A stretch of 64,000 nucleotides of DNA from a virus, in the IMG/VR virus record IMGVR_UViG_3300034064_001073, positions 1-64,000 of that record; one strand, 5' to 3'. The position numbers and the translations under genes were made by a program. Positions 38,981-49,954 of this stretch are shown one piece after another. Position 1 is the first letter of the stretch; the number at the start of each line of letters is the position of its first letter. The notes below the pieces were generated by a model. That model did no database searches. It was not told where the DNA came from and saw only the letters and a list, made by a program, of their open reading frames with translations.

Positions 38981-39019
38981 AAAGAAAGCCCCCAGGCCTT
39001 TCGACCCAGGGGCTTTTTA
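38978..39019 (-). terminator. Intrinsic terminator after the major capsid gene
   Basis: The minus strand carries a GC-rich hairpin (arm AAAGCCCCTGG, loop including CGAAAG, arm CCTGGGGGCTTT) followed by CTTTTGTT. It lies about 27 bases after the capsid stop. On the plus strand the same hairpin is followed by TTTTT, so it may work in both directions. Confidence 0.87.
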
Positions 39020-39045: not shown

Positions 39046-40332
39046 TTAGTAACCAACGACTGGCTTAGTACCTGGAACAACCGCAGCAAAGTTACCACCC
39101 ACTGTAGGATCGTAGACAGGACGTGCAATCTCAGGAGAGTAGTAGTTCTGATCGCAGAAGACATTCTTAAGCGTGATTGAACCCTGACCTTCGTTGTACA
39201 TGAAGATACCCCACTTCTCTGACCACTTCATCTTGAAGGTCTCAAAGTACTTGTCCTCCCACTCATCAGCAACAATGCCTGAGCCAACAATTAGAGCACC
39301 AAGTGACTTGCTATCGCAAAGAACGATATCGGTAAGCTTAGTAGCAGGATCGTAAGGCATAAAGCGTGAAGTGACAATGCGGAGACCAAACGGAAGACCA
39401 AGAGGAAGCTGAGGAGCAGCTGTAATGGCGTTAACGTTGAAGTCCTTAAGAGTAGCAGGATTGCCACCTGCAACAGGTGAAGCACCAAGCTGGCCGCGTG
39501 AATAACCCTTTGAAAGAACACCCTTAACGGCGTCAGGAACACCACTAACGTTAGCAGCCGAACCCGAATAGTTACCAAATAGATTGGAGCTACCGCTCTG
39601 CATGGCAAATGCACGAAGGACGGGGTCGCGGACAAACATAAGGTAAGTAAGAGGATGGCAGATTAGCGTATCAGGTGTAAAGCCTCTCTGAATGAGAAGG
39701 TGATATGCATTGAAAATATCATCCATGGTAAGGGTACCATTGGTCTTCATCGTGATGTCACGACCAGTCGTGATACCAAGAGCTGACTGCTGAGGATTGA
39801 CGTTATCAAATGCAGGAACGCTGATGTTCGTGATATGCTTGGCGATTTCGGTCTCCTTGCGGCGAGCGAAAGCACGACCAGCCTCACGGGCAAGGTAACC
39901 AAGGAGATTCCAATTGGAAGCCTTGATAGCCTCTTGCGTAAGGGAGATCATAACACCCCACTTGTCAATGGCGGCCGTAGCCATACCACCGCCAGTTGTC
40001 ACACGCTCTTCACGGTAACCTTCAAGCTCAGTGACCTTATGGACAGTGAAAGCTGAAAGGGCAGGAAGGCGGAACTCAGTGATACCATCCGGTGCAGGAA
40101 TGGTGTCAAGGAGTGGGGTAAGATTGAGCATAGGCTCCATCGGCTCCATCATAATCTCAACAATTGAGTGCTTGACCCAGGGCCCAAGCTCAGCTGATGT
40201 AATCGCGTCTTCGATTGAAAGACGTGAGTCGCTGCTATGGTCTGAGCCAGGAAGCCAACCGTTGTTCTTGATGAGCGCTGTAAGCTCACTCTGATCAGCA
40301 ATTTCTAGGTTCTTATGCTTTAGTCTTGACAT
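39046..40332 (-). CDS. Major capsid protein (HK97-fold type)
   Basis: 428 residues. The layout fits large myovirus capsid proteins: an N-terminal arm, an E-loop-like stretch after TEFRLPALSAFTVHKVTELEGYREE, a long helical segment (SNWNLLGYLAREAGRAFARRKETEIAK), the P-domain/A-domain region with TPDTLICHPLTYLMFVRDP, and a late GIFMYNEGQGSITLKN strand. It is the shell subunit. Gene order (protease, then other head proteins, then this gene) and a strong AAGGAGAAC ribosome site, GC-rich codons and a dedicated terminator all mark it as the most expressed head gene. The N-terminal 60 residues may be cut by the prohead protease, but no site is claimed. Confidence 0.88.
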   Translation of the reverse strand: MSRLKHKNLEIADQSELTALIKNNGWLPGSDHSSDSRLSIEDAITSAELGPWVKHSIVEIMMEPMEPMLNLTPLLDTIPAPDGITEFRLPALSAFTVHKVTELEGYREERVTTGGGMATAAIDKWGVMISLTQEAIKASNWNLLGYLAREAGRAFARRKETEIAKHITNISVPAFDNVNPQQSALGITTGRDITMKTNGTLTMDDIFNAYHLLIQRGFTPDTLICHPLTYLMFVRDPVLRAFAMQSGSSNLFGNYSGSAANVSGVPDAVKGVLSKGYSRGQLGASPVAGGNPATLKDFNVNAITAAPQLPLGLPFGLRIVTSRFMPYDPATKLTDIVLCDSKSLGALIVGSGIVADEWEDKYFETFKMKWSEKWGIFMYNEGQGSITLKNVFCDQNYYSPEIARPVYDPTVGGNFAAVVPGTKPVVGY

Positions 40333-40366: not shown

Positions 40367-41857
40367 TTAGAGTAGGACGCGCACGATGGCAGCGAACTGA
40401 CCACCGAATGACTGATGAATTTCTGCAGGATGACCATCGTTAGCCGAACCAGGAGTACGATCAGCAAGTGACACGCCTTCGTAATCATGGAAAGTCTTAA
40501 CAGCAGCAAGATCAGCCTTAGGTGAACGGTCAAGTGTATAGCACTTACCAACAATGTCCTCTGGACGATGGAACGCAGTAGTAGCCATGTCTACTGAGCC
40601 AGTAGTGCCTTCGGTATCGGTCTCGTCAGGACGGGCAATGTAAGGAACAAAGTTAGAATACTTGTCATAAGCAAGATAATCGCCAGGCCTGACTGTACCA
40701 GTCACTGAGGCAAAAACCTTAGCAGGAGCTGCGGCTGTATCAACTGCAGGAGCAGGTGAGTACGAAAACTTAACAAGATCTGTTGCAACTAGACCAGTAG
40801 GAATAGCGTCGCCGCCAGCCTCATAAAGGAAAAGAATGCCAAGGTCACGGTCAAGGAACCAATCACCAGCCGCTTTTAGCGCGTTGGGGCTATTCTTCTC
40901 TTTCTTAAGAAGACCAGTGGTCTTTATGGTAGTAGAAGTACTGTTAGTCACAACTAGCGGATTATAAACATTGCTTTCAACACCCTTTGTGCCAAGAGCA
41001 AGAGCAACCCAGTCTGTAGCAGTAAGATCTGCATAACGATCTGCAAGTAATGTTGTCTTTAGAACTGATTCACTTCCAAGGAACCACTTAGCCGAACCAC
41101 TTTCAAGGTGAGAAAGAGCGGAGACTTTATTCCCAGAAATAGCAGGAACAGCCTCTGAGCCATTTGTTGCAGGAGCAACAGGAAGACGAAGAGTATGATC
41201 CTGGCCAGTCCAGAAGGTTGACTTATTCTCACGACGATAGTTCATGAAACGAAGTTTATTAGGCTGAGTACCATCGCCGCCAGCCCAAGCGTAAACCACG
41301 TTAGCAGCAATACCAATGGGACGAGAAACAAGAGCATCGCAAGTCTCAGCTCCACCAATAAGACCACGGCTACGAAGTCGCTTGGTAAGATTAAGCTCGG
41401 GGAAGGCATCGCCCGCTCCGTCGCTGCTCTTTAAATATGTTTTGGCCGCAGTAACAGGAAGACCAGTACCAAGGTCTTCAATCTGCTCTTCCACGTCCTC
41501 TGCCGTATACTGAAGAATTGCGTCGCCATCTGCAGCCGCCTTCCAAGCAAGACGAATACCAGCAGGAACAAGACGACCTACAGTGCCATGATTAATGGTT
41601 GAGGTGGCATTCTCTCCGTTAAGGGTCTCGCGGGTGAGGGCGACAAGCTTACCAGGCATAACAACAACCTTATCGGTGAAGACGTGACGCTGATAGTCGT
41701 AAGTGAAATAGCCAGCGGCTGAGTTAGTCGCAGTAGCGCTGACAGGAAGCCAAGCCGCTGCGGCAAGGTCATTTTGAGGAGCAACCGTGTCGCCGTGCGT
41801 AGGGGCGATAATCGGCTTACCGTAATCGATATCTCTAAACTTTCTGTATGTTGCCAT
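40367..41857 (-). CDS. Abundant virion protein, probable capsid decoration or cement protein
   Basis: 496 residues. Beta-rich and Ala/Thr/Gly-rich with few charged helices. It starts MATYRKFRDIDYGKPI and ends QSFGGQFAAIVRVLL. I recognise no family motif. It sits immediately before the major capsid gene, the usual place for decoration or cement proteins. It shares that gene's high-expression features: a TAGGAGAAAA ribosome site and GC-richer codons than surrounding genes. Repeated strand-turn segments (VVVMPGKLVALTRETLNG; SVTGTVRPGDYLAYDK) suggest surface beta domains. Cement or head-stabilising function is inferred from context. It could also be a second shell or vertex protein. Confidence 0.6.
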   Translation of the reverse strand: MATYRKFRDIDYGKPIIAPTHGDTVAPQNDLAAAAWLPVSATATNSAAGYFTYDYQRHVFTDKVVVMPGKLVALTRETLNGENATSTINHGTVGRLVPAGIRLAWKAAADGDAILQYTAEDVEEQIEDLGTGLPVTAAKTYLKSSDGAGDAFPELNLTKRLRSRGLIGGAETCDALVSRPIGIAANVVYAWAGGDGTQPNKLRFMNYRRENKSTFWTGQDHTLRLPVAPATNGSEAVPAISGNKVSALSHLESGSAKWFLGSESVLKTTLLADRYADLTATDWVALALGTKGVESNVYNPLVVTNSTSTTIKTTGLLKKEKNSPNALKAAGDWFLDRDLGILFLYEAGGDAIPTGLVATDLVKFSYSPAPAVDTAAAPAKVFASVTGTVRPGDYLAYDKYSNFVPYIARPDETDTEGTTGSVDMATTAFHRPEDIVGKCYTLDRSPKADLAAVKTFHDYEGVSLADRTPGSANDGHPAEIHQSFGGQFAAIVRVLL

Positions 41858-41879: not shown

Positions 41880-42695
41880 TTAGACTTTCACGTCTAGTGG
41901 GTTAAACTTTCCTGAAACAAAGCCAGAACGCACTTGTTGAACAAGATAGTTCTCAGCTTTATTTATATCATGATTTCGTAATTCTTTGTATTTACTAGCC
42001 ACTCTTCGCTCTACAGATGTCCAGTATTCTGGTGTAATATCCATTGCATCTTCAATGGTATTTACATCAAGCTTCTTACCAAGCTCTTTAGGCTCAGCAG
42101 AATCTTCAATGATAATCTCTTCTGACTCTGAACTATCGGCAACCTCAGTTGTCGCTTCTTCGGCCGAATCCATTGGGCCACTCATTTCTTCTTCAATTTC
42201 CTCACCGGAAGATTCACTTGGAATTTCCATGCCAGCAGTCTGAAGAGAGGAACCAAGTTGCCACTGCCACTTCTGATGCATATCAATACGCTCAGCTACG
42301 AAGTTTGCAACACCTTGCTCATTGGCAGCATTAGCCATGTCAAAGACATCCTTAAGCATAGCAAGCATCACCACATTCTTCTTGTACATATCAAGAGCAA
42401 GTTCACTTGCTTCAGTAGTCATAGAATCATCTTTGATTGATGCAGTCTCGACCATGTAAGTAAGAGAGTGAGGAAATGAACCAAGCTTGCGGATATTTTC
42501 AGCAAGTGGGTCTACTGAACTAGAGTAGATGTCATCATAGATATTTCCAAATAGCTCATGATACTGAGCAAAATCAGGGCCAGCAACATTCCAATGTGCA
42601 CGATGTGCAGTAGAGTACAGAGCAATTACATTGCTAAGCAGGCCTTTGAGGGCATCAGCCACTTGAGCTGTACTAGTTGTCATTTCAGTTTCCAT
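41880..42695 (-). CDS. Dps/ferritin-like protein with acidic C-terminal extension
   Basis: 271 residues. Residues about 10-160 match the Dps four-helix family: LKGLLSNVIALYSTAHRAHWNV, GPDFAQYHELFG, DPLAENIRKLGSFP and a late helix with AERIDMHQKWQWQLGSSL. Ferroxidase positions of E. coli Dps (H51, H63, D67, D78, E82) map to H34, H46, G50, D62 and E66 with a one-residue insertion, so four of five are kept and D67 is lost. Residues about 165-215 are very acidic Ser/Glu-rich, followed by a helical C-terminal domain (PEYWTSVERRVASKYKEL). It lies between the prohead protease and the capsid genes, the normal scaffold position, with a perfect GGAGG site and a candidate promoter. It may be an internal head, DNA-protecting or scaffold-like protein; iron oxidation is uncertain. 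Confidence 0.82.
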   Translation of the reverse strand: METEMTTSTAQVADALKGLLSNVIALYSTAHRAHWNVAGPDFAQYHELFGNIYDDIYSSSVDPLAENIRKLGSFPHSLTYMVETASIKDDSMTTEASELALDMYKKNVVMLAMLKDVFDMANAANEQGVANFVAERIDMHQKWQWQLGSSLQTAGMEIPSESSGEEIEEEMSGPMDSAEEATTEVADSSESEEIIIEDSAEPKELGKKLDVNTIEDAMDITPEYWTSVERRVASKYKELRNHDINKAENYLVQQVRSGFVSGKFNPLDVKV

Positions 42696-42740
42696 ATTAT
42701 TCCTCCAAAAGGATTAAGTTAAATTAATAATTACATAGTG

Positions 42741-42762: not shown

Positions 42763-45513
42763 TTAGCCACCTATACCAGGAGCAGGATAAGCGCCGAGGG
42801 GAGGAGTCTCTTTCTTGCTCCACACAATAGGAGCCATAATCTTTTTTAGCTCAGACCTCTTCTTGACAGTTACTTCTTCAGTCTTGTCATATAGGCCATC
42901 CTCACCCATTTTAGCAATAGTAAGAATAGTAGCAGGATCTTCCTCTGATGCATCTACACTTAAACCAAGACCATGAGTAACAGTTCCTTTGCTATGCATA
43001 GCATCAATGACTCCATATCCTTCTTTCATTTCAGCTGCGTCGTCCTGCTCACCAAGTGAACCTGAACTAACACCAACTTCATTACCTTTGCTATCAAGAC
43101 GATAAGAAACAAAGTCACCTACAGCAAAAGTTGGCGTTGACGGAGTTGTATAAGTTTTCTCAGGAGTATAAGTATCTTCGACTGAAGACTTAACACTTTC
43201 CTCAATGGCAGTTTCAACAACTGGCTCATTGTAAACAAAGTCACCCATCACCCAAGGACCCTTAACTGAATCTTCAGTTCTCATACGTTCAATTTGTGCA
43301 GCTTTGGCATTTGCCCAGCTCTTGCCGCCATCGCCACCCCAAAGATCCCAAGCAATACGACCAGGAGAGGGAAAGCCTTCTTCGCCTTGGTTGAAGCCAG
43401 AAGCTTTCTTGTCAACCTCATGACGTGCAAAGAAACTCTTCATACGCATAACGGTAGAAGGAGAAAGCTCTTTCTTGTTCATAATGTCTCTAGCGCGCGC
43501 TACTCCAACGCCGGTACCACCGCGCTTGAACTCTGCACGCCACTCAAGAGCACGTTTTGCAGCTGACGCCATACCAGGTGTTGGAACAAATCCCTCAGCG
43601 GCATCATCAATTTCTGGAGCAAATAAGTCTTGAATTTCTTCACCAAACTCACTCTCGTCCATCTTGGACTTGCCGGCATCTTGCATACGTGCAAGCATCT
43701 TCTGGGCACGAGCCTGGATTGACTTAACCTTATCCTCAGCAAGACCCTTAACCTGACCAGCCCTAGCAATAGCATTACGAAGATGAGGAAGGTCAACCTT
43801 GCCATCCTCTCCTTTGTACGGTAAATGGCGAAGTGAGCGAGGTTTAGTTTTGCCCTCTTCATCCTTCTCGCCACCTGACTCAACATAAAAGAAAGAACTA
43901 TCTGGAAGATTGTTAACGTAAGCAGTCGACCAAACAGCATCGTCAATGCTGATTGTTTTTACCATCTCAGAGAACATCTCAGCCGACATATTATCGGCTA
44001 GCTCTACATTAAAGTTGTTAGCAAGGAACTCTTTAACAGAGTCTAGCAATGACTTACTATCAAGCTCAACTTTGGCAAGCTTCTCATCTGTGATAGCCTT
44101 ATCAGAGCGTAGCTCTTTAAGTTCTGACATTACCTCTACAGAAGCAATAGATTTTGACTTAATGTATTCGTCAACAATCGAAAGAATTTCCTTCTTATTG
44201 TCGTCTGATAGTACGCTTGGCATTTCTTGCTCCTCTTCATTGGTTGAGTTAGTTTGGTCTTCCATAGATTCTGTCTTGTTTGCTGAGACTAGTCCGTCTG
44301 GAATAACAGCAAATCTGCAGTAACCATTAGGCTCTATGGTTTGGGAAATAATTTTACAACGACTCTCACTGGCATGAAGAGCGCAATTGCCGCACTTAAC
44401 CCCAATGCTTAGATTTTCATTCTCTGGCCCACTTTCATAGCCAACCCAAATACCAGGAGCCTTATCAAGAGGTCCAACTTTACTAGCAAGAGTCATTAGT
44501 GAATCGGCTAGAGCCTTTTCCTCTTCTGAAAGTTGACTGTAAAGATCAATATAGTCATCTGCTATTTCAACTGGAACTGTAGCAACTGGACCGTTATCAA
44601 AGCTGGCCATAATCTCTGAGTCACTAATATCAGTAGCCGCATTTTTAAAGCAGTCGGTCACAACCATAGTAGTCTTGAAATTTTCTAGGTATTGCTGAAG
44701 GGCGTCGCCACCAACCTCTTTATAATTCATTACTCTAGCATGAACATCAGCAGGATGTGTAACATAAGCATAGCCACGATAGCGAAGACCGCTTGGGACG
44801 CCATACGCTTTGGTCCCATCAATATCGTCGCCAATGTCCCATTCCATCTCGTCAGTCTTGTAAGACTTACCGCTAATAGAATCGTAAAGATCATTAGGAG
44901 TCATCTCAACACTAACTGTAAGATAGCGCCCATCAAGGGTTTTCTCTACAGCCTCTGGATCTGTAACAAGTCCTTTGACAAGTACCCATCCAAGGCCCTC
45001 AAAATCCTCATCAGTCATCATTCCAGACTTGGCAAGCTTCTTCATATAGGGAGCCATAGCAACGTCAGGAGCCTTAAGTATAAGGCCATCCTTGATCATT
45101 GTAGAGCTAACATTATAGGCAGCCTTAGGGTTGTCTACCCAAGTTCCACCAATAGCACGACCAACAGCTCCAACCTCTCTATTCTCAATTTTCTTACCAT
45201 CAACAACAGCAACTTCCTTATGCATAGGCTTAATAGGGATGTTGTATGGATTAGTAAGTGTAGGAATTGCATCTTTCAAGTCAGATGGCATATAGATAAG
45301 GTTATTCTGAGTAGGTCTCATTCCATGAGTAACCTTTGTAAGAGTTACTAGACCAACCTTGTTTTCTGCCACACCATCACTGATAAAGTATTTGAAGTCA
45401 AGAAAGTGTGGGCTCTTCTTGTCCCAAACTTCATGGGTGAAATCGCCCTTAACACTACTAACAAAATAGTCCTGAACAATACCTTCTTGTAATAGTCTCT
45501 TACTTATCTTCAT
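42763..45513 (-). CDS. Multidomain prohead protease
   Basis: 916 residues. The first 270 residues fit a prohead protease of the S78/assemblin type: PMHKEV (H about 98) then REVGAVGRAIG, KGLVTDPEAVEKTLDGRYLTVSVEM (S about 201), and RYRGYAYVTHPADV. Residues about 375-400 hold a CxxC...C...C cluster (CGNCALHASESRC then GYC), like iron-sulfur or zinc motifs in other phage proteins. Residues about 420-500 are acidic and helical (scaffold-like). Residues about 545-615 (PRSLRHLPYKGEDGKVDLPHLRNA) and 660-750 (VARARDIMNKKELSPSTVMRM, then IAWDLWGGDGG) are two further domains known mainly from phage proteins. The C-terminus is an SH3-like part (FAVGDFVSYRLD). The protease matures the head. The extra domains are unusual. 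It overlaps the MuF-like ORF by 14 bases. Confidence 0.8.
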   Translation of the reverse strand: MKISKRLLQEGIVQDYFVSSVKGDFTHEVWDKKSPHFLDFKYFISDGVAENKVGLVTLTKVTHGMRPTQNNLIYMPSDLKDAIPTLTNPYNIPIKPMHKEVAVVDGKKIENREVGAVGRAIGGTWVDNPKAAYNVSSTMIKDGLILKAPDVAMAPYMKKLAKSGMMTDEDFEGLGWVLVKGLVTDPEAVEKTLDGRYLTVSVEMTPNDLYDSISGKSYKTDEMEWDIGDDIDGTKAYGVPSGLRYRGYAYVTHPADVHARVMNYKEVGGDALQQYLENFKTTMVVTDCFKNAATDISDSEIMASFDNGPVATVPVEIADDYIDLYSQLSEEEKALADSLMTLASKVGPLDKAPGIWVGYESGPENENLSIGVKCGNCALHASESRCKIISQTIEPNGYCRFAVIPDGLVSANKTESMEDQTNSTNEEEQEMPSVLSDDNKKEILSIVDEYIKSKSIASVEVMSELKELRSDKAITDEKLAKVELDSKSLLDSVKEFLANNFNVELADNMSAEMFSEMVKTISIDDAVWSTAYVNNLPDSSFFYVESGGEKDEEGKTKPRSLRHLPYKGEDGKVDLPHLRNAIARAGQVKGLAEDKVKSIQARAQKMLARMQDAGKSKMDESEFGEEIQDLFAPEIDDAAEGFVPTPGMASAAKRALEWRAEFKRGGTGVGVARARDIMNKKELSPSTVMRMKSFFARHEVDKKASGFNQGEEGFPSPGRIAWDLWGGDGGKSWANAKAAQIERMRTEDSVKGPWVMGDFVYNEPVVETAIEESVKSSVEDTYTPEKTYTTPSTPTFAVGDFVSYRLDSKGNEVGVSSGSLGEQDDAAEMKEGYGVIDAMHSKGTVTHGLGLSVDASEEDPATILTIAKMGEDGLYDKTEEVTVKKRSELKKIMAPIVWSKKETPPLGAYPAPGIGG

Positions 45514-46147
45514 TAGCCTTCCTTATAATGACTTTGCTATTAGGATGATCAGGCGGTAAATCATAATATTTACTATCTAGGATTTTCCTATTATCTATTA
45601 TAGACTTACTACTTTGATTATATACCTGGTATGATTCTTCGCCATTATCCTTTAAAGCATTGAAAACACCCCAGTTATAACTTCTCATTCTTTCTGTCTC
45701 GTAGATAGTCATCATCCTATGACCAATCGTCTTAGCTGTATCTGTTATAGTGCTACCTTGTCGATTGCGCATCTCAATGTGTAGCTTGTCTATGAAAAAC
45801 TTCTGGACCTTTAACTGAAACTCTATGTTTCCTGTATGAGTCTCAGAAGTTAAATTAGATGAATCAGCATATTCAGAGTAGCCTTTTATGTAGGCCTTTA
45901 TGCTGTTGTCTTTAAGCATGATAGAGAAGCGCTCAAAAGCAGCGTCAACAGTAAACTCAGGATGAACTTCATAGTCAGCCTTTTCTCTTAGATGACTAAC
46001 TAACCCATTTACATCTTCTCTGTACTCGTCAAAGTCCAGAATCTTATCTGTTACTAGACTACCTGGACCACTTTTAGTACCATACTGGTTTGATGGCCTA
46101 ACAGCATTCGCATTAGCTTTGCCACTAGGCGGCGTTACTGAATTTTT
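45500..46147 (-). CDS. MuF-like head morphogenesis domain, probable -1 frameshift extension of portal
   Basis: This open frame runs without a stop from the portal's A10 run to TAA at 45502-45500, about 215 codons. The first ATG in it is at 45919, 76 codons in, and has no ribosome binding site. The end has the MuF layout: a helix with IGHRMMTIYETERMRSYNWG (like the I-x-R-T-E-x-x-R-x-x-N motif) and LPPDHPNSKVIIR (like L-P-P-x-H-P-N-C-R-C, with Ser in place of Cys). MuF proteins aid head assembly and are sometimes fused to portals. I infer it is made as a portal C-terminal extension by -1 slippage. The alternative is a 139-residue protein from ATG 45919, or a homopolymer error in the assembly. 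Confidence 0.68.
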   Translation of the reverse strand, partial: KNSVTPPSGKANANAVRPSNQYGTKSGPGSLVTDKILDFDEYREDVNGLVSHLREKADYEVHPEFTVDAAFERFSIMLKDNSIKAYIKGYSEYADSSNLTSETHTGNIEFQLKVQKFFIDKLHIEMRNRQGSTITDTAKTIGHRMMTIYETERMRSYNWGVFNALKDNGEESYQVYNQSSKSIIDNRKILDSKYYDLPPDHPNSKVIIRKANEDK

Positions 46148-47679
46148 TTTTTAATATCGCGTGAATCTTTCTCAGGTGCCACTGGCTTTTTTGCAATATT
46201 ACCAGCTGCTAGATCTCTAGCCTTTTGTAAATCACCAGAAGACATAGGAGTTTTATCGCTCTTAGCAGAAGTCTCAGCCAACGGAGACATTGGATTTGCT
46301 CCAAGTCTAAGAAGCTCTTGAGCCTCAGTAATCATCTTGTAATATGAATGATCCCAATCGTTATCTGTAGAGCTTGACATACCAATGCGGTCTCTTAACT
46401 CATCATGGCTAATTGCGCTATTCAACCATAACTGGATAGCCGCATTCTCTTTCTTTATTTGATTTTCAACATCTATTTCCTTGAATCTAAGAACAACTTT
46501 ATTCTCTGGTTCAAGCCAGTCAAAGCTATTGTCCTCTGAACTTTCTTGGAGCATAGGAACAATAAGATGAGCATAAATTTGTTCTTCAAGAACAAGCTGA
46601 TCACTTTTAACTGCATTAATAAGACTACTAGACATAGTAGCTGCAGTTGACCTATTAGCAGTATCACCTTCGCCAATGTCTACCGTTGATAGACCAAGCG
46701 CGGCAAGAACACGCTTCTTGAAATAATCAAGATAGCTTTCAGCTCTAAGTGAGCGTCCTTCCGCTCCAATCATTTTAATCTCATGGCGCTCAGGAGTAAC
46801 AAAGAAACCTTCTGGTGGTTGATTATTAATAATCTCAGTAACCATACTAATTTCATCTCTTCCGTCTGGAAGTATAGTTGCAGGCATTGCTTCTGTTCCA
46901 ATCTTATACTGGACAATAGGAAAGATTGTTTGATGTAGTAGAACTTCTACGTCAGTCTCAATTCGACGTAAAGCCTTGATATCTTCAATTGCTGCACTGC
47001 ATCTTGGGGTACCAACAATAAAGCCTTCAAGCTTATTAACATGAAAATGAATAATTTCATTAGGCTCATATATAGTAGTAGGACGAGTATTCTCGGTCCA
47101 GTCTTCTTCGCTGTATTGTCGATACTTTATGGGCTGTTTAAGGTCGTTGACCTTAACCTGGATCATACTGGTAGGAAGTATATGAAGTGAGCTAATTGGG
47201 GCTATTTTGCGCCCCTTAGAGTCAGTTCTAGTATAGCCTCCAGATGTCTTGTCATTGCGCTTAACAAGAACAAAACAATTGCTATATCTAATAATGTTCT
47301 TAGCTATATCAGTTATAAACTGGCGAGGTGTAGTGCGACTAACATAGCAAACTTCTTTAAAGCGCCGCTCTATGTACTCTACAAGATCAGGGTCTTTTCC
47401 TATAACCTCATACCCCTCTTTCATAAACAAAGAAAGCTTCTTGTCAAAGCTAATCTGTAAGTAAGCCTCAATCGTAGCAACTTTATCTATTTCTTTGAAG
47501 TCATGCTCTAGCTTTTGCCAGTCATTCATAAAGTACGGACGAGTAGTCCTATAGTTAAATACTGGATCCTTAGTCTTTTCCAAGCTAGGTCCAGGCATCT
47601 TACTCTCAGCATCATCTATTACTTTAATCGATGAAGCAAGATTCTTAAGATTAATAACTTGTGCTTTTAATTTAAACAT
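46135..47679 (-). CDS. Portal protein
   Basis: 514 residues to the in-frame TAA at 46137-46135. Portal-family features are a clip/stem layout with PRQFITDIAKNIIRYSNCFVLVKRN, ISSLHILPTSMIQVKV, TIYEPNEIIHFHVNKLEGFIVGTP, then a tail/crown helix AESYLDYFKKRVLAALGLST and TAATMSSSLINAVKSDQ. Twelve copies would form the DNA channel at one vertex that docks terminase and the neck. The C-terminus is lysine-rich (DSRDIKKKIQ) and encoded by an A10 run, at which a -1 shift would continue into a MuF-like domain. The start overlaps the preceding 760-residue gene by eight bases. Confidence 0.87.
   Translation of the reverse strand: MFKLKAQVINLKNLASSIKVIDDAESKMPGPSLEKTKDPVFNYRTTRPYFMNDWQKLEHDFKEIDKVATIEAYLQISFDKKLSLFMKEGYEVIGKDPDLVEYIERRFKEVCYVSRTTPRQFITDIAKNIIRYSNCFVLVKRNDKTSGGYTRTDSKGRKIAPISSLHILPTSMIQVKVNDLKQPIKYRQYSEEDWTENTRPTTIYEPNEIIHFHVNKLEGFIVGTPRCSAAIEDIKALRRIETDVEVLLHQTIFPIVQYKIGTEAMPATILPDGRDEISMVTEIINNQPPEGFFVTPERHEIKMIGAEGRSLRAESYLDYFKKRVLAALGLSTVDIGEGDTANRSTAATMSSSLINAVKSDQLVLEEQIYAHLIVPMLQESSEDNSFDWLEPENKVVLRFKEIDVENQIKKENAAIQLWLNSAISHDELRDRIGMSSSTDNDWDHSYYKMITEAQELLRLGANPMSPLAETSAKSDKTPMSSGDLQKARDLAAGNIAKKPVAPEKDSRDIKKKIQ
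46143..46152 (-). promoter_or_regulatory. A10 slippery run at the end of the portal gene (candidate -1 frameshift site)
   Basis: The minus strand has ten consecutive A residues spanning three lysine codons of the portal, five codons before the stop. The run contains A-AAA-AAA, a classic -1 slippery heptamer that also favours transcriptional slippage. A -1 shift leads into an open frame of about 215 codons that lacks a good start. I did not identify a stimulatory structure. Confidence 0.6.
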
Positions 47680-49954
47680 TGTCTACGTTTGCTCCTAATG
47701 CAACTCGACGCCAGAACTCTAGGCTTTCACCTTTGCTTATTATAGACGATTTTGCTCTGTCACAATTTATAAGATTAAATCTACTGTCTGTGGCCGGATT
47801 TATTAGATATTTAATAGGAGTGGTTCTCTGAAAACCTTTATTTCTGTTCTGTCTTGCCTTTTCCTCGTAAACAGGTTGACTATTAAAGTATTCCTTCATT
47901 GGGAAATCACTATTAGGATCTGGATCCCAAGGATCCCAAGGACTCTCATTAGTTGAGTTGCCATTCTCATCTTTCATAGGTATACAAGGCTCAATGCCCT
48001 TAGAGGTAGCAGCCTTATAGAGGCCAAGAGCAAAAGATAGTAACTGAGAGACTGCCATAATTTTTGTGCAAAGAACAATATTAGAATCAGTCTTCTCACC
48101 AAATAAAGTCTTAATAACATCCGAACCATATTCTACAATTTTTGTTTGAGCCCCAACATATTCAATAAAGTCATAGATTGCAGTTTTAATCATTTCAAGA
48201 GAGTCCAACGCATCCCCTCGGCCCATCAAAGGATTGGTAATCGTTGATAGAAATTTCATTCCATTAGAGTTCAATGCTCCCTCCAAGGCTTTGCCAACCT
48301 CTTGTTGATCTATGCCTATTTCTCCATTGGCGTTATTAAAATATTTCTGACTCCATTTAGTCAGCGCACTTATTTTGTTATCTTCTCCTGTTCCTGAGTT
48401 TACCCAGTTTGACAGTTCTTCTGTAGTAAATCCATACTGCTTCCCAGCCTTATCAATGTCCTGAATACTTACAAGACTATTAATTGTGCATAGTGCGTAG
48501 TTTGGAAGGGGAGAGATATTGGCACGAATACTCATTTGTAACAAGTTGAGTAGAGGCTCAATAATTCCTCTCATAACTAAATCTCTTAGAAAGTTTAGAC
48601 CAAAGTTTGCATTTGCCGAGAACACTTCCGCCCAAGTATAGACTAAAAGACCACCAAGCGTAGCAATAACAAATAGTAGCTCTAACGGACACAGAGATCC
48701 AAGTCTTAGTAGGGAGCAGTAGTTAGCTTTTAGATGGAACTCAAGATCACTAGCAAATCTTATCTTGTCCCATAGAGCTTTCGTAATACGTAATTGCTCT
48801 TTCATTTTCAATTCAAGATCTACACCAAAAACAAAATCGCTGCCTTTGAATAGATCACCTGGACCTTTCATATTTCCAAGATCGTCTTTCAGCTTTTGCC
48901 ATTCGCCGCCAAAGCACTCATAGCATCCGTCCCAACCACGAATTAAGTCACCAAGATCTTTAGCTGGTTCTCCAATTGCTCTTGCCTTGAGCTTAGAAGG
49001 CTCCTTGCCTCTAAATAGAACGTCTATGGCACTATTTTGCTTGTCTATTCCATTAAGAGTACTCTCTATGCTGTGGACCACTTCCCTGGTCTTCTCAGCC
49101 TCATTAAACAAAGGTATAAGGCCAACTTTCTGAGAGACATTATCTTCACTAAGTTTTATTTCGTTCTGAGCTAAGGAAGTTTCTAGTCCAAACATATCTC
49201 TGAAAATATCAAACTCTTCATAGACTTTCCATCTCTTATCTTCTCCTAGATTGTTCAACCAGTCAGAGGTCATCTTGCCTAAAGTTTCTTTAGGCTTAGA
49301 GTCATAGTCTTTTTTAATTGTTTTTTGAGCTTGGTATGCAAAAGCAAGAGCAACAAGCGGGCCAAACTTAGTTGACATATCTTCGTCTTCTGTTATGCCA
49401 GACATTGCGTCTTTCTGTAACTCTTTAGTTGTAGAGTTTATTTGGTTTTTTGCTTTTAATTCTGTGTAAAGCTTTGTATGCTTTTTTAACTCTTGTATCT
49501 CTTGATAGGTTAACTTGCCTTTTTGATGATTAGGAAAAAGAAAATCTGCGACTAAGCATTCGTCATGATCCTCACTAGTATAAGGAACACTATAGTTTAT
49601 ATCCTTTAACCTATCAGCAGTCTCTGCAAGAAACTTATCTAAAGTTGCTGCTTGTATAGCTGCTTCTTCTCTGTTTTCTTTTCTAAGGGCTTCAACTGCA
49701 AGAGAACTAATGTCTCTTGCTTTACCATTGTAAAGCTCAGAATCTAGTATCTGGTTGTATTCTTTGTTTGAGTTTAGATTAGATAGTAAGTCTTGTATCA
49801 GACTATTCAGCTCTGTTGCAGAGAGTTTATTTACGTCCCTGTTCTCTACTTTATTACCAGGCCCTTCATCTCTGCTTACTTCTTCTAGTTGAATACCTTG
49901 GTTCGTGCTATTACTTTGAATAAAGAACTTTTTGTTTAAAGGAAGCTTTTCCAT
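47672..49954 (-). CDS. Head-region protein of unknown function with a hydrophobic segment
   Basis: 760 residues. Mostly helical and charged in the first half (KENREEAAIQAATLDKFLAE; KLTYQEIQELKKHTKLYTEL). One strongly hydrophobic segment (LCPLELLFVIATLGGLLVYTW, near residue 430) and a second milder one (KIMAVSQLLSFALGLYKAA, near residue 645) suggest membrane contact. Several cysteines lie around GCYECFGG and CSLLRLGSLCP. I recognise no family. It sits between a small protein and the portal gene and overlaps the portal start, so a head-vertex or ejected-protein role is possible but unproven. The start ATG follows the 149-residue gene by 11 bases. Confidence 0.6.
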   Translation of the reverse strand: MEKLPLNKKFFIQSNSTNQGIQLEEVSRDEGPGNKVENRDVNKLSATELNSLIQDLLSNLNSNKEYNQILDSELYNGKARDISSLAVEALRKENREEAAIQAATLDKFLAETADRLKDINYSVPYTSEDHDECLVADFLFPNHQKGKLTYQEIQELKKHTKLYTELKAKNQINSTTKELQKDAMSGITEDEDMSTKFGPLVALAFAYQAQKTIKKDYDSKPKETLGKMTSDWLNNLGEDKRWKVYEEFDIFRDMFGLETSLAQNEIKLSEDNVSQKVGLIPLFNEAEKTREVVHSIESTLNGIDKQNSAIDVLFRGKEPSKLKARAIGEPAKDLGDLIRGWDGCYECFGGEWQKLKDDLGNMKGPGDLFKGSDFVFGVDLELKMKEQLRITKALWDKIRFASDLEFHLKANYCSLLRLGSLCPLELLFVIATLGGLLVYTWAEVFSANANFGLNFLRDLVMRGIIEPLLNLLQMSIRANISPLPNYALCTINSLVSIQDIDKAGKQYGFTTEELSNWVNSGTGEDNKISALTKWSQKYFNNANGEIGIDQQEVGKALEGALNSNGMKFLSTITNPLMGRGDALDSLEMIKTAIYDFIEYVGAQTKIVEYGSDVIKTLFGEKTDSNIVLCTKIMAVSQLLSFALGLYKAATSKGIEPCIPMKDENGNSTNESPWDPWDPDPNSDFPMKEYFNSQPVYEEKARQNRNKGFQRTTPIKYLINPATDSRFNLINCDRAKSSIISKGESLEFWRRVALGANVDNV

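Follow-up and report, generated by a model that had tools for sequence, protein, structure and literature searches.

Phage Dps has so far been read as a helper of host stress tolerance. The Dps genes of Gratiaviridae phages (PMC8008677) and of Lactobacillus phages (PMC6669764) were interpreted as host oxidative-stress genes, and the ferritin of freshwater phages likewise as a host stress gene (PMC6802176). The Dps genes of the isolated phages S-SRM01, LAh_8, BUCT695 and BS162P1 are located outside the annotated head modules; in LAh_8 and BUCT695 they are surrounded by DNA-metabolism genes. In the phiEco32-like phage SU10, mass spectrometry of phage particles yielded 6 peptides of CDS67, a protein with a Dps domain, but the experiment also picked up DNA polymerase, so that contamination is possible (PMC4281155). 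Ferritin-like proteins inside an HK97-fold shell are known from the encapsulins, whose cargo includes the Dps-like IMEF (PMC6668986, PMC11202242). Our search of the open-access literature found no paper on a Dps fused or linked to capsid, prohead protease or scaffold, and the arrangement described here, Dps adjoining or fused into the head protease/scaffold in a large set of uncultured phages, appears to be undescribed.

The window, i.e. the whole stretch of 64,000 nucleotides analyzed (positions 1 to 64,000 of IMG/VR record IMGVR_UViG_3300034064_001073), encodes a Dps-like protein with the following features.

41880..42695, minus strand: Dps-like head-operon protein of 271 aa (open reading frame; Pfam and PHROG; AlphaFold; Foldseek)
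42225..42695, minus strand: Dps four-helix bundle domain, residues 1-157 (profiles, AlphaFold, dN/dS)
42033..42224, minus strand: acidic linker, predicted to be disordered, residues 158-221 (AlphaFold, composition, dN/dS)
41883..42032, minus strand: small helical C-terminal domain, residues 222-271 (AlphaFold; conserved in relatives)
42702..42706, minus strand: ribosome-binding site GGAGG, 6 nt upstream of the Dps ATG (read from the sequence)

The protein matches Pfam Ferritin over residues 14-153 (E 2e-11) and PHROG 3636 over residues 8-152 (E 6e-22), and its top phmmer matches in the PDB are Dps proteins (best E 5e-18). A monomer prediction by AlphaFold, based on an alignment of 91 relatives, gives a pLDDT of ~98 across the bundle, with Dps-type helices at 9-36, 42-70, 96-123 and 127-153 and a short helix at 78-84 in the BC loop, as is found in Dps. 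Residues 163-221 are predicted to be disordered, and two further helices follow at 227-242 and 244-257 (pLDDT ~91-94). In a Foldseek search against the PDB, Dps proteins rank first (E 8e-8), MrgA superimposing with an rmsd of 1.4 A. The earlier note, made from the sequence alone, had proposed a Dps domain with a strongly acidic linker, an extra helical C-terminal domain and a strong ribosome site. The profiles and the model confirm the domain, including the four-helix ferritin bundle that structure prediction had been suggested to check, as well as the C-terminal helices; the linker contains 19 D/E vs 3 K/R in residues 158-210, and GGAGG lies at the expected place. The promoter candidate assigned to the gene did not hold up: no minus-strand sigma-70-like site was found between the genes, and such sites are no commoner in the region than in shuffled sequence.

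The Dps domain itself is acidic (10 K/R vs 21 D/E), and a basic tail was looked for and is absent at both the N-terminus (METEMTTSTAQ) and the C-terminus. The C-terminal domain is kept in relatives of 53-96% identity, and its conservation is limited to the window-type family; sequence and profile searches found no homologue outside that family, nor any match to the tails of the KLEB27-3 and MTATph1 proteins discussed below or to other fused tails. A weak tblastn extension into locus L019 had hinted at a divergent DUF5824, which was rejected (hhalign P 0.2).

The predicted fold resembles that of dodecameric Dps proteins (MrgA of B. subtilis, 2chp; V. cholerae, 3iq1; PA0962 of P. aeruginosa, 8ff9), with a TM-score to target of 0.85-0.93 and ~27-32% identity. 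The four core ferroxidase ligands H34, H46, D62 and E66 are shared with these three proteins and also with the Dps of S-SRM01, LAh_8, BUCT695 and BS162P1, which are phage-encoded like the window protein but distant from it in the tree. In contrast to the dodecameric proteins, the window protein belongs to a virus-only subfamily with a RIDMHQKWQWQL-type signature and has Gly for the fifth carboxylate, an acidic linker, an extra helical domain and a head-gene context.

The alignment thus agrees with the ligand assignment of the earlier note, in which Gly occupied the D67 position. The four ligands are invariant in 91/91 sequences whose mean column identity is 32% overall, while Gly50 takes the position of D67 (E. 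coli) or D47 (Listeria). Because of this Gly in place of Asp/Glu, the window protein is classed as a divergent Dps-domain protein rather than a classical five-ligand Dps, and its ferroxidase site may be weakened. S-SRM01 Dps also has Gly there, so the fifth ligand varies among clear Dps homologues. D/E is found in 17/24 standalone copies vs 4/55 head-linked copies (Fisher p 1.6e-8); since the tree offers only 1-3 phylogenetically independent pairs, we do not claim this association as an independent correlation. In cellular Dps, the ferroxidase ligands are contributed by two subunits. Their joint conservation in the 91 sequences argues that the dimer interface and metal binding have been kept.

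The gene is part of a minus-strand head module, read in the order portal, 139-aa gene, p916, Dps, p496, major capsid and terminator-like hairpin.

46135..47679, minus strand: portal protein (PHROG 9232, E 8e-37; isolates)
45500-45919, minus strand: 139-aa open reading frame before p916
42763..45513, minus strand: p916, prohead-protease homologue (profile match to isolated-phage prohead proteases)
40367..41857, minus strand: p496, fast-evolving, between Dps and capsid (homologous to ME3_21)
39046..40332, minus strand: major capsid protein, HK97-type (Pfam Phage_capsid_4, E 4e-10; homologous to ME3, KLEB27-3 and MTATph1 capsids)
38985-39016, minus strand: strong terminator-like hairpin directly after the capsid gene

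Wherever their contigs cover the module, phages of the window-type family invariably have portal, small gene, protease, Dps, p496 and capsid in this order, and both portal and capsid of the window are homologous to those of KLEB27-3, MTATph1 and ME3. The earlier note had placed Dps between protease and capsid genes. The protease homologue p916 does adjoin it, but the 496-aa gene p496 separates it from the capsid; as p916 matches isolate proteases and p496 matches ME3_21, which immediately precedes the capsid gene of phage ME3, the order protease, Dps, capsid is correct once p496 is inserted before the capsid. Identity of p496 between sister phages is ~60%, vs >90% for protease and capsid, and this fast evolution might fit an exposed head protein. 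The 139-aa reading frame has 166-179 aa in relatives owing to an N-terminal extension, and in the window the true start may lie further upstream or the gene may be damaged. Beside the portal, p760 (47672-49954, minus strand) is a mosaic gene, its identity being 77% to the copies of some sister phages but ~30% to those of others.

The layout of p916 comprises protease homology at ~50-280, a HiPIP-like Cys4 domain at ~328-411 and a PHROG 2859 domain at 644-743. Alone it matches MTATph1 CDS0006 (hhalign P 96.3, E 2e-9; BLASTP E 7e-10), and aligned jointly with metagenomic protease-Dps proteins it matches KLEB27-3 gp14, annotated as 'prohead protease' (hhalign P 99.2). Single-sequence Pfam/PHROG scans, PDB profile searches and AlphaFold/Foldseek gave no informative match to a protease. 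With an uninformative model (pLDDT 38), the assignment rests on sequence profiles, by which p916 qualifies as an S78-like prohead protease homologue. The Cys4 domain (44281-44532, minus strand, residues 328-411) has the spacing C-x2-C-x8-C-x11-C; Pfam HiPIP is matched by 14/21 members of its family (best E 3e-4), and the family matches PDB HiPIPs at E 0.01. The HiPIP-like domain recurs beside Dps in several other phages (L028, L106, L127, L155), in L155 within the same protein. A redox partnership with Dps is only a suggestion.

To place the window protein among its relatives, IMG/VR was scanned with the Dps-domain alignment. At least 599 stretches matched and at least 595 were confirmed, so that relatives are present in at least 595 IMG/VR contigs. 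The same scan of ~85,000 cellular genomes left 2 confirmed matches, both MAG contigs, one of which (L117) is itself a Dps-prohead-protease fusion. Among 50,697 phage records there is no close relative, the best matches having 25-38% identity over partial length. Together with a pattern scan, which involves no ranking by similarity to the window, the alignment scan gave 215 loci in 86 clusters with one representative each. The observation is real and not confined to a single phage: a virus-specific Dps lineage has become part of the head-assembly genes. The Dps domain is under purifying selection (dN/dS 0.04-0.18 against relatives); in most comparisons it is exceeded in dN/dS by the linker, and the C-terminal domain is constrained too. 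Compared with the sister phages L043 and L044, the Dps domain (42225-42695) has 80-83% protein identity, with high dS in L044, whereas protease and capsid are less divergent and the C-terminal domain stays close. It looks like the Dps module has been swapped by recombination.

In 54 of the 86 clusters Dps either forms a fusion with a head gene or is its immediate neighbor, and about half of these are fused to head-protease sequence. Of the 53 clusters with a pattern-scan member, 27 are head-linked. Another 24/86 are standalone, with no head gene adjoining Dps, which indicates that the domain also works outside the head context and that the head link belongs to lineages, not to all members. In the tree, the window Dps falls in a 25-row group (SH-aLRT 94) made up almost wholly of protease/scaffold-linked copies, fused or adjacent, fusion being the commonest state. 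The architectures are as follows.

L046 and relatives: protease, Dps and a long tail, between portal and capsid (PHROG 9427)
L064, L080, L088, L112 and L117: Dps and then S78 protease, between portal and capsid where covered
L073 and L094: protease and then Dps
L023, L065 and L087: polyproteins, 1.7-2.4 thousand aa long, that precede the capsid gene and match PHROGs of head protease and portal
21 clusters: Dps directly after the portal gene

The S78-type prohead protease is thus fused to Dps on either side, depending on the phage. The Dps-S78 fusions scanned match Pfam PF04586 at E 1e-39 to 1e-41, and PHROG 9427/80 are matched across the fusions. A structure search independently returned BFVD proteins named 'Prohead protease' as matches to the Dps fold of the window.

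The insertion of Dps is clearest in comparison with KLEB27-3 and MTATph1, which have a single protease-scaffold protein, without Dps, between portal and capsid. L063, L096, L109 and their relatives share homologous portal and capsid proteins with the window. Their corresponding protein has a protease half that matches the KLEB27-3/MTATph1 proteins (hhalign P 99.0-99.7) and a tail that matches their coiled-coil, scaffold-like C-terminus (P 89, E 2e-6); in the alignment, the Dps domain sits between the two. From its place and make-up, and by analogy with known protease-scaffold fusions, we infer that this tail is a scaffold. The window shares with KLEB27-3 and MTATph1 the homologous protease half, portal and capsid, but holds Dps as the next gene, a split version of the arrangement. 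The comparison with related scaffold genes that the earlier note had suggested bears out its reading in part: Dps does lie inside the protease-scaffold of relatives, but the C-terminal domain of the window is unlike their tails. HK97-type proteases and scaffolds are procapsid-internal proteins (review PMC3185693), so Dps domains fused to them are expected to get into the procapsid, and by analogy with these relatives the separate window Dps presumably does as well.

At the sequence level, the protease fusions and protease-scaffold insertions in related phages strongly support a link of Dps to head assembly, and we consider the window-type Dps probably to be a procapsid-internal component of some kind. 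The reading we favor, though at no more than even odds, is that it is an internal head cargo with ferroxidase chemistry, loaded alongside protease and scaffold. The virus-specific Dps would enter the procapsid with the protease/scaffold core, covalently as part of it in relatives, and in the window presumably recruited via its C-terminal domain and acidic linker. Once the head had matured by proteolysis, it would stay inside the shell as small internal cargo, where its intersubunit metal site, if the protein oligomerizes, would bind and slowly oxidize Fe(II), the HiPIP-like domain of the neighboring protease serving as a possible electron partner, and iron/peroxide chemistry would be kept off the packaged genome. 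We count in its favor the fusions, the insertion, the fixed gene order, the tree group, the invariant ligands, the low dN/dS and the adjacent HiPIP domain, as well as the position of Dps outside the head module in the four inspected isolates and the BFVD 'Prohead protease' matches. Against it are the space that a 9-nm dodecamer takes inside a DNA-filled head, the fifth-ligand Gly, the 24/86 representatives with no adjoining head gene, the assignment of p916 as protease from sequence profiles, and the fact that Dps is a separate gene in the window.

The earlier note had proposed three roles: protecting packaged DNA, lining the head or acting as a scaffold. The head-assembly link common to them stands, whereas direct DNA binding is disfavored. 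E. coli Dps condenses and protects DNA by binding it directly, and the family name and head-module position would suit such a role at the packaged genome; the acidic domain and linker, the absence of a basic tail and the negative net charge of all groups examined, head-linked ones included, speak against it and make it very improbable. A scaffold role agrees with the place and linkage of the gene: the bundle, with its linker and helical tail, would be an oligomerizing core module that gives the procapsid its shape and disappears by removal or degradation during maturation, metal only stabilizing the dimer. The embedding of Dps in the protease-scaffold of relatives fits this, as does the fact that head-linked copies have mostly lost the fifth ligand, but a pure scaffold leaves the four ligands, invariant in 91 diverse sequences, unexplained, and isolates with homologous portal and capsid do without Dps, so that we regard it as rather unlikely. 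The protein could also be a late cytoplasmic ferroxidase that lowers iron/peroxide toxicity in the infected host, the head operon setting only its timing and dose. This would follow the published reading of other phage Dps and ferritin genes cited above, and S-SRM01, LAh_8 and BUCT695 as well as the standalone family members are in line with it. It seems doubtful to us because the repeated prohead-protease fusion and protease-scaffold insertion would have no explanation and the window Dps belongs to the tree group in which fusion is commonest. SU10 CDS67, a middle gene that is not head-linked, differs from the window Dps in this respect.

Returning to the internal-cargo proposal, the encapsulin/IMEF system is similar in pairing an HK97-fold shell with a Dps-resembling protein of the ferritin superfamily, as the window phage may do. 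It differs in that the phage shell is a DNA-filled head, that Dps is coupled to protease/scaffold and that the fold matches dodecameric Dps. Encapsulin cargo binds its shell through a short terminal targeting peptide, and the window protein has a conserved C-terminal domain that may or may not act similarly; we use the parallel as a working analogy, not as homology of the cargo system. More broadly, and only tentatively, the heads of a widespread lineage of aquatic phages may be HK97 shells that carry a ferritin-like ferroxidase and have converged on the ferritin-loading encapsulins. The virion would act as an iron-handling nanocompartment that guards the genome from Fenton damage or carries iron to the next host, and the protease with its HiPIP domain would be the redox partner. 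That so large a virus-specific Dps lineage is tied to capsid protease/scaffold predicts an iron-binding protein in the procapsid, perhaps in the virion too. Should this prove correct, phage heads would also serve to protect or to carry iron, encapsulin-ferritin compartments would have a natural counterpart in them, and iron inside phage particles would have a genetic basis.

At L085:9593-11989, near a MuF-type head gene, a 798-aa protein combines Dps with a zeta-toxin-like domain (Pfam E 6e-19). Downstream of portal-Dps, L098:11172-19322 encodes a very long protein of 2717 aa in which DUF5824 is combined with a stretch resembling a DNA-polymerase exonuclease, and similar genes follow Dps elsewhere.
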